A DNA stretch of 32,515 nucleotides from positions 1 to 32,515 of the forward strand of contig JAENXG010000002.1 of assembly GCA_016649675.1 (NCBI GenBank), given 5' to 3'. Source of the DNA: Methyloceanibacter sp. GTDB lineage: Bacteria; Pseudomonadota; Alphaproteobacteria; Rhizobiales; Methyloligellaceae. A program made the translations under genes and the position numbers. This document shows positions 20,851 through 22,076 of this stretch, one piece after another. Each line of letters opens with the position of its first letter. The stretch's first letter is position 1. The notes under the pieces are model-generated. The model made no database searches. It was not told where the DNA came from and saw only the letters and a list, made by a program, of their open reading frames with translations.

Positions 20851-21294
20851 TCACCGCGCCATGCGCGCCGAGGGCGTGTAGTCCCCGGCGAGAAAGCGGT
20901 TGAGGTCGAGCCTGATCGCTGCGGTGCGCTCTTTGTTGCAGTAGTTGAGGTCGTCCTTGATGGTGTCGAACACCGACTGGCGGGTGTAGTCGTAGGCGCG
21001 CGCGATCTTCGGTATCTGCTCGGGCGGTATGCCTGAGCGCGCTTCGGCCGCGAGGAAGTCGGATCGGAGCTGATCGGGATTGAAGACGAAGCCGCAATGG
21101 GTCGCCCGCGCCGAGGTCCACCCCACCTGCATCGGCCTCGCCAGAGGATCCTCGGGCGCCACGGTGCGGGCCTCGATCTCCGTGGACGCGCCTTCTTTAT
21201 TCCTGAGCTTGCCCACGCTGCTGCATGCCGACAGAGCAACGAGGAGCGCCGCGGCAAATGCCGCATAGACCGCGATCTTTGAGGTCCCTCCCAT
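20851..21294 (-). CDS. putative lipoprotein, function unknown
   Basis: 147 residues. The start MGGTSKIAVYAAFAAALLVALSAC has a hydrophobic core and a lipobox LSAC, predicting lipid attachment at Cys24. The mature region includes THCGFVFNPDQLRSDFLAAEARSGIPPEQIPKIARAYDYTRQSVFDTIKDDLNYC, a helical stretch with two Cys that could pair. I do not recognise the family, although similar small lipoproteins occur in Hyphomicrobiales. No good Shine-Dalgarno is visible. It lies just downstream (on its own strand) of a minus-strand terminator, so it should have its own promoter in the 65 bases between. Confidence 0.65.
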   Translation of the reverse strand: MGGTSKIAVYAAFAAALLVALSACSSVGKLRNKEGASTEIEARTVAPEDPLARPMQVGWTSARATHCGFVFNPDQLRSDFLAAEARSGIPPEQIPKIARAYDYTRQSVFDTIKDDLNYCNKERTAAIRLDLNRFLAGDYTPSARMAR

Positions 21295-21358: not shown

Positions 21359-21401
21359 CTAAAAACAGGAAAGGCGGAGCTTTGCGGCCCCGCCTCCCTG
21401 T
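21359..21401 (-). terminator. long minus-strand rho-independent terminator
   Basis: On the minus strand ACAGGGAGGCGGGGCC-GCAAA-GCTCCGCCTTTCCTGT is followed by TTTTTAG. Positions that are A-C mismatches on the plus strand become G-U wobble pairs on the minus strand, giving a helix of about 13 pairs or more. That strand bias shows which strand is transcribed. No annotated gene ends here on the minus strand. Confidence 0.75.
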
Positions 21402-21667
21402 ACGATGTCGGCCTCACGCCCGTTCGGGACGATCAGTCGGCGCTCGCCGAGACCTTTCGGTCTCTGGACCACGCGCTCGGCTCCATGGTTGCCCATGCAG
21501 CGGCGGCGTGACCCGACCTCGGTCCTTATTTAGCGTCGCGTTGCTACGACGTGGTTCCCGCCCTGGCCGGGCTGGAGCCTGATCAGCGGTGGCATGCGCG
21601 GCGCAAAGTACCCTGTCGGTTCCGCCTCACGGTATTGCGGCGGTGCCGCCAGACCGCGGCACTTTGC
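21365..21667 (-). ncRNA. candidate structured RNA on the minus strand
   Basis: Upstream of the terminator, the minus strand folds into successive hairpins: GAGACC-GAAA-GGTCTC (21464-21449) and CATGG-GCAA-CCATG (21497-21484), both with GNRA tetraloops only on this strand; CGTCG/CGACG (21551-21534); and a GCAAAGT...ACTTTGC outer stem (21667-21603) enclosing two GC-rich hairpins. I looked for signature motifs of RNase P RNA, SRP RNA, tmRNA and cobalamin riboswitch and found none. A conserved RNA of unknown kind or a decayed one are both possible. The 5' end and promoter are not resolved. Short frames such as MPPLIRLQPGQGGNHVVATRR lie inside it. Confidence 0.4.
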
Positions 21668-22076
21668 ACTTGCTCATTCCTCCGCCTTTAGCCGCCCATG
21701 GCAATGGACGACATTGGGCTTGCCTTGCCCCGTGAGCTTCACGTCTGCTTCCGATGCCGCCGGATTTCTCCACCGGCACTTTCCACAACCGCTCCAGTCA
21801 CAAACCAAGCATACATGAGCAAGCGCGAGGCGCATGGGGGAAGGAGAGGCTTATCCCCGCTATCCACCGCTCTGGTGGCGACGTGAGGAACTGGAGCGGG
21901 GGATGCCATCGCCTGGGTCCGTTGCCGCAGGCTCAATCCCGTCCTTGGCGCAAAGGGCCCGAGGGGAACGCGCTTGCTGGATGAAGCGCTTCCCATGGCC
22001 TCGAAGATGGTTAAACTAACGCCTTCGCGCGAGTGGGTTTCTGCGCGTTCCTGGCGGCGTTTTCCCGGGTAGATCC
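21668..22076. other. intergenic region without a recognised gene
   Basis: Roughly 410 bases between the candidate RNA and the next gene. Small frames exist on both strands (for example one ending PWPRRWLN on the plus strand, and MASPAPVPHVATRAVDS on the minus strand), but none has a recognisable domain together with a good ribosome binding site. Base composition is less skewed than in coding DNA nearby. It may hold promoters or decayed coding sequence; I see nothing firm. Confidence 0.4.

Follow-up and report, generated by a model that had tools for sequence, protein, structure and literature searches.

GOLLD and ROOL, two large structured RNAs with many helices, often reside on phages or mobile elements. 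Cryo-EM structures are available for both of them and for OLE (PMC12286853). Among alphaproteobacterial trans-acting RNAs, EcpR1 (PMC4414408) and CcnA (PMC8959179) act on the cell cycle, while an AbiF-type system includes a phage-encoded RNA (PMC12373285). Single-copy RNAs as large and complex as the one described here are seldom conserved throughout a bacterial family, and the handful of known examples—RNase P RNA, tmRNA, 6S RNA, and OLE—proved important. How does a newly recognized locus in Methyloceanibacter compare with these systems? We analyzed a 32,515-nucleotide stretch of a Methyloceanibacter sp. genome (GCA_016649675.1, contig JAENXG010000002.1, positions 1 to 32515; hereafter the window), which carries on its minus strand a large structured RNA gene (Table 1).

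The first-pass annotation of the window had described 21359-21667 as a gene-free region encoding a selected, structured RNA on the minus strand, with two GNRA hairpins, an outer GCAAAGT/ACTTTGC stem, and a terminator. No credible open reading frame (ORF) was found in this interval, and a search for a conserved ORF within the chromosomal RNAs found none. Both hairpins, with GAAA and GCAA loops, are indeed there, the outer stem pairs 21661-21667 with 21603-21609, and the terminator occupies 21366-21400 plus a T run. The interval was, however, too short at its 5′ end, such that the 5′ third of the RNA (P1–P4) had been missed. DNA searches recovered the intergenic region from a further 15 genomes of the genus (72-88% identity) and from two of a sister genus (69-71%), and the conserved block extends to ~21801 for the RNA and to ~21870 on the promoter side. 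Folding gives z = -4.0 for the complete 442-nt RNA (0 of 100 shuffles as good); for the original interval it gives z = -3.2 on the minus strand and z = -3.4 on the plus strand. Because both strands beat shuffles, the choice of strand needed comparative data. Among the non-Watson–Crick cells of hand-built minus-strand structures for aligned relatives, there were 103 G-U versus 5 A-C in one sub-alignment (A2) and 132 versus 17 in another (A3). This excess identifies the minus strand as the RNA and upholds the annotation's argument from G-U pairs. A sigma-70 scanner found no canonical promoter for the RNA.

Table 1. Features of the RNA gene and its upstream region (positions in the window)
Feature	Position	Strand	Remark
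Conserved upstream element GTGGATAGCGGGGATAAG	21850..21867	-	Two tandem DnaA-box-like 9-mers (CTATCCACC, TTATCCCCG)
Tentative -10 element TATGCT	21808..21813	-	Aligns with similar hexamers in relatives; weak
Whole RNA	21360..21801	-	~442 nt; 5′ end placed from the conservation boundary
5′ domain closed by P1 (GUGA/UCAC)	21732..21801	-	U-A to C-G change in relatives
P2 hairpin GGGC-AAGGCAA-GCCC	21716..21730	-	
P3 hairpin	21690..21713	-	Loop UUGCC complementary to P2 loop GGCAA
P4	21679-21686 with 21585-21592 (span 21585..21686)	-	Encloses P5/P6 domain
P5 (+ P6)	21658-21668 with 21602-21613 (span 21602..21668)	-	Contains GCAAAGT/ACTTTGC stem
Pseudoknot	21653-21657 (GCGGU; mostly ACGGU in relatives) with 21629-21633 (ACCGU), P6 loop	-	
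Hairpin H-a GG.UCC.GCCC-GGCCA-GGGC.GGA.CC	21553..21579	-	Strong covariation across family
Most conserved core: H-b CGUCGU-AGCAAC-GCGACG, then NNAAAYAAG	21525..21552	-	Common to phage RNAs
H-d	21506-21514 with 21466-21474 (span 21466..21514)	-	Hand comparison of L012, L017, L018
GCAA tetraloop hairpin CATGG-GCAA-CCATG	Inside 21483-21498	-	Carried by H-d
GAAA tetraloop hairpin AGAGACC-GAAA-GGTCTC (GAGACC-GAAA-GGUCUC)	21449..21465	-	
3′ domain with hairpin CGUCCCGAACGGGCG (21417-21431)	21402..21448	-	
Terminator, intrinsic	21362..21400	-	Counterpart hairpins in relatives

Which bacteria carry this RNA? Covariance model R3 found exactly one copy in each of 29 of 30 Methyloligellaceae genomes, including all 17 of high quality; the sole genome with no match is 80% complete. 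The hosts are Methyloceanibacter, Methyloligella, and MAGs labeled Hyphomicrobiales or Hyphomicrobiaceae, which we read together as the family Methyloligellaceae. The 5′ model, R1, gives weak matches in further genera of the family; at those loci an independent model, R2, matches immediately downstream and in the same orientation. In family loci, the P2–P3 pair is followed on the same strand by the H-a/H-b core and then, in the loci that were read by eye, by a terminator-like hairpin 3′ of the RNA. Convincing matches in an order-wide sample (398 genomes) were confined to family members, the class sample added one distant alphaproteobacterial MAG (L110) in which P2, P3, H-a, the core, and a hydrophobic ORF described below all occur together, and the phylum sample held no convincing member. 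An ORF at 1871-2788 of L110, which by its sequence appears to resemble an IS1595-type transposase, adjoins this distant copy. Other families (L050, L051, L103-L109, and L111) and the phylum sample (L196) gave weak R1 or R3 matches, which were treated as chance because they were not credibly accompanied by the other half of the RNA or lay in coding sequence. Among 399 Pseudomonadota genomes searched by pattern, only the window matched, and pattern matches in Pantoea, Phycisphaeraceae, Prevotella, Thermoguttaceae, Sphingomonas, and Caenimonas had no convincing support from R1 or R2.

We then asked whether the proposed structure covaries among relatives. Structures were written by hand on two sub-alignments, A2 (5′ core) and A3 (3′ half), and the pairs were then counted; RNAalifold missed H-d owing to a misalignment and cannot draw the pseudoknot, and both were added by hand before counting. 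The 47 pairs of A2 are paired in 96.7% of cells, and 17 of them contain double changes against 7.1 expected, a number reached by 0 of 500 shuffles. For the 55 pairs of A3 (89.8% paired), we counted 39 double-change cells against 16.9 expected (0 of 500 shuffles), and 13 pairs with double changes against 8.9 expected (6 of 500 shuffles). Sliding the partners by 1-3 columns lowered pairing to ~33-44% in both, a control that flatters because the structures were partly derived from the same sequences, so that more weight rests on the double changes and on the comparison with shuffles. This covariation, a check the annotation itself had proposed, supports a selected RNA on the minus strand. Double changes affect 9 of the 11 pairs of P5. 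All cells of the five-pair pseudoknot are paired (100%), with U-A to C-G replacements in two species and three pairs that never vary, while H-b is nearly invariant and thus carries no covariation information. Counterparts of the GAAA hairpin in relatives read GGGGCC/GGUCCC and GAGAUC-GCAA-GAUCUC.

The loops of P2 (GGCAA) and P3 (UUGCC) are kept in most members, and in the distant L110 they are replaced by GAGAU and AUCUC, which are complementary again with a two-base register shift on the P2 side. A kissing-loop contact between P2 and P3 is therefore probable, with L110 as the main sequence behind it; we estimate that such complementarity would arise by chance a few percent of the time. The segment AAAGGCGGAG (21679-21690, after P3) is also complementary to the terminator arm CUCCGCCUUU (21366-21378), a possible alternative pairing, and similar complementarity occurs in several other genera.

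What lies upstream of the RNA? In the loci examined (e.g., L044, L064, and L073), arrays of DnaA-box-like 9-mers are arranged in tandem with a 9-bp period, and perfect TTATCCACA boxes occur in some genera. An origin of replication was considered on account of these boxes and rejected. In the complete genome G014, GC skew places the origin at ~1.3-1.4 Mb and the RNA lies at 0.39 Mb; with the skew minimum ~1 Mb away, the DnaA-like sites do not simply mark oriC. They suggest that transcription of the RNA may be tied to replication or to the level of DnaA.

Could the RNA be a known one in disguise? Its size, single copy, and family-wide conservation would be compatible with a diverged housekeeping RNA (RNase P RNA, tmRNA, 6S RNA, or SRP RNA). 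Three of these four are contradicted by the presence of the genuine RNA elsewhere: RNase P RNA on another contig of the same genome (RF00010, 304 bits), alpha_tmRNA in 8 of 8 relatives, with ARAGORN finding no tmRNA in the region, and 6S RNA (RF00013) in 12 of 12 relatives. The window's own genome yielded no tmRNA match, most likely because it is a fragmented MAG, and SRP RNA had no Rfam match in the region itself. Reading the core as tmRNA-like (GCA ACG CGA CGN TAA) was abandoned, as the stop is not conserved. One relative, G005, holds a second, partial alpha-tmRNA match (C1:2938150-2938481, 118.9 bits) beside its full one. Rfam 15 gave no match in the window and nothing meaningful at E<=10, its only match among the relatives was one tRNA in a flank, and the phage members described below had no match, in line with the annotation's view that the RNA lies outside the known classes, now extended to permissive thresholds and several family members. 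A housekeeping copy is thus exceedingly improbable, and the RNA very likely represents a new family among the large structured noncoding RNAs. Another alternative is a riboswitch-like, cis-acting leader or attenuator that would act through the terminator on a downstream same-strand gene, namely a putative lipoprotein gene here (20851-21294) and malonyl-CoA decarboxylase elsewhere. The terminator does lie ~66 nt upstream of 20851-21294, in many relatives a gene on the same strand follows at a distance of some hundred bases (some such gene is present in most loci), and the 5′ segment noted above could pair with the terminator arm. However, this potential antiterminator pairing is absent from L006 and L018, the RNA is rather long (442 nt) to be a leader, and riboswitches keep functionally related targets, whereas the type of downstream gene here differs between genera. 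Neighbors in Methyloceanibacter and Methyloligella are genes for YcjX (DUF463)/DUF697 and an uncharacterized divergent gene, in several other genera they encode malonyl-CoA decarboxylase or acyl-CoA synthetase, and in another genus the neighbor is an unassigned ORF. These varied contexts, together with the terminator-like hairpin, favor a separate RNA gene that is probably trans-acting; a leader is improbable as the general explanation, although the RNA may play such a role in single genera. Comparison of sequences establishes the minus-strand RNA itself, its strand, its fold, its distribution, and its change of neighbors.

A further alternative places the origin of the RNA in phages. An initial H-b pattern, which did not demand the loop AGCAA, found viral contigs, five of them with an identical AGCAA loop; a stricter second pattern found eight viral contigs (L115, L117, L120, L121, L122, L125, L126, and L127) with the 22-nt core GTCGTAGCAACGYGACGNTAAA. 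In all nine loci with this core (these eight and L110), a hydrophobic ORF of 27-28 codons, such as MIDLQIRVKVDLKGIVKPLLAVLLLLIR, starts 55-67 nt after the core. In the viral contigs it is 28 codons long and its distance from the core is ~61-67 nt; it has no PHROG match, and its differences are distributed over codon positions as 196/118/158, compatible with coding. Where viral flanks were readable, one flank held a Q-like antiterminator or an unassigned family and the second held endolysin or other lysis genes, and the RNA was encoded on the strand opposite to these genes; L121 has other neighbors. The chromosomal RNA could accordingly be a relic or a domesticated moron, with an original prophage role alongside a small membrane-like peptide, as the shared core and the combination of P2, P3, H-a, core, and ORF in L110 would suggest. 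Yet R1 matched no viral contig and only L110 (15.1 bits), so that with the viral contigs the core alone is shared; a viral scan for P2/P3 sequence likewise found nothing, and INPHARED phages and PLSDB plasmids gave no match. The surroundings of the chromosomal RNA showed no phage genes, and Methyloligellaceae lack such an ORF. We regard a phage-derived element as unlikely, while common descent of the chromosomal RNA with phage RNAs carrying the same core may be inferred. A tentative picture is that of two lifestyles, one as a prophage moron in which the RNA is accompanied by a membrane-like peptide of 28 residues, close to antiterminator and lysis genes, the other chromosomal, DnaA-linked, and peptide-free in Methyloligellaceae. 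Five other viral contigs (L113, L114, L118, L119, and L123) carry a different recurrent element, CGTCGTAAA..GGGGCGCGACGGAAAACAAGAGCCCC, just after a gene; this element might fold into an H-type pseudoknot (GGGGC with GCCCC).

The reading we prefer, with a probability of roughly 60%, is that 21360-21801 on the minus strand is a single-copy, stand-alone, family-wide gene for a trans-acting structured RNA whose core serves as a partner site. The gene ends in a terminator of its own and is preceded by conserved sequence, and its product is made up of hairpin domains, a pseudoknot, and the probable P2–P3 loop–loop contact. The RNA would act in trans across Methyloligellaceae. Its core hairpin, CGUCGU-AGCAAC-GCGACG, and the AAAYAAG tail would form a putative site at which a protein or the ribosome binds, with the remaining fold presenting the hairpin to it; a protein- or ribosome-binding RNA is our best guess. 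The upstream DnaA-box-like sites could link its transcription to replication or DnaA level. Its function is directly testable, given a consensus, boundaries, a pseudoknot, a near-invariant core, cultured hosts (Methyloceanibacter and Methyloligella), and phage relatives with a peptide.

Among the systems introduced above, the AbiF-type system resembles the viral loci in that an RNA and a small protein are encoded together on phages, but the RNA here has no Rfam match and is linked to a hydrophobic peptide of 28 residues without a PHROG match. EcpR1 and CcnA are likewise chromosomal alphaproteobacterial noncoding RNAs, and the DnaA-like sites might suggest a comparable tie to the cell cycle; the Methyloceanibacter RNA nevertheless has a large multidomain fold with a pseudoknot and no recognizable relation to either. 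With GOLLD, ROOL, and OLE it shares a length of hundreds of nucleotides, many helices, and a function that is unknown or partly known, whereas it is smaller, has no Rfam match to any of them, and is confined to one alphaproteobacterial family and a few viral contigs. Although RNase P RNA, alpha tmRNA, and 6S RNA are all located elsewhere in these genomes, the RNA resembles these three in being chromosomal, conserved, structured, and essentially single copy.
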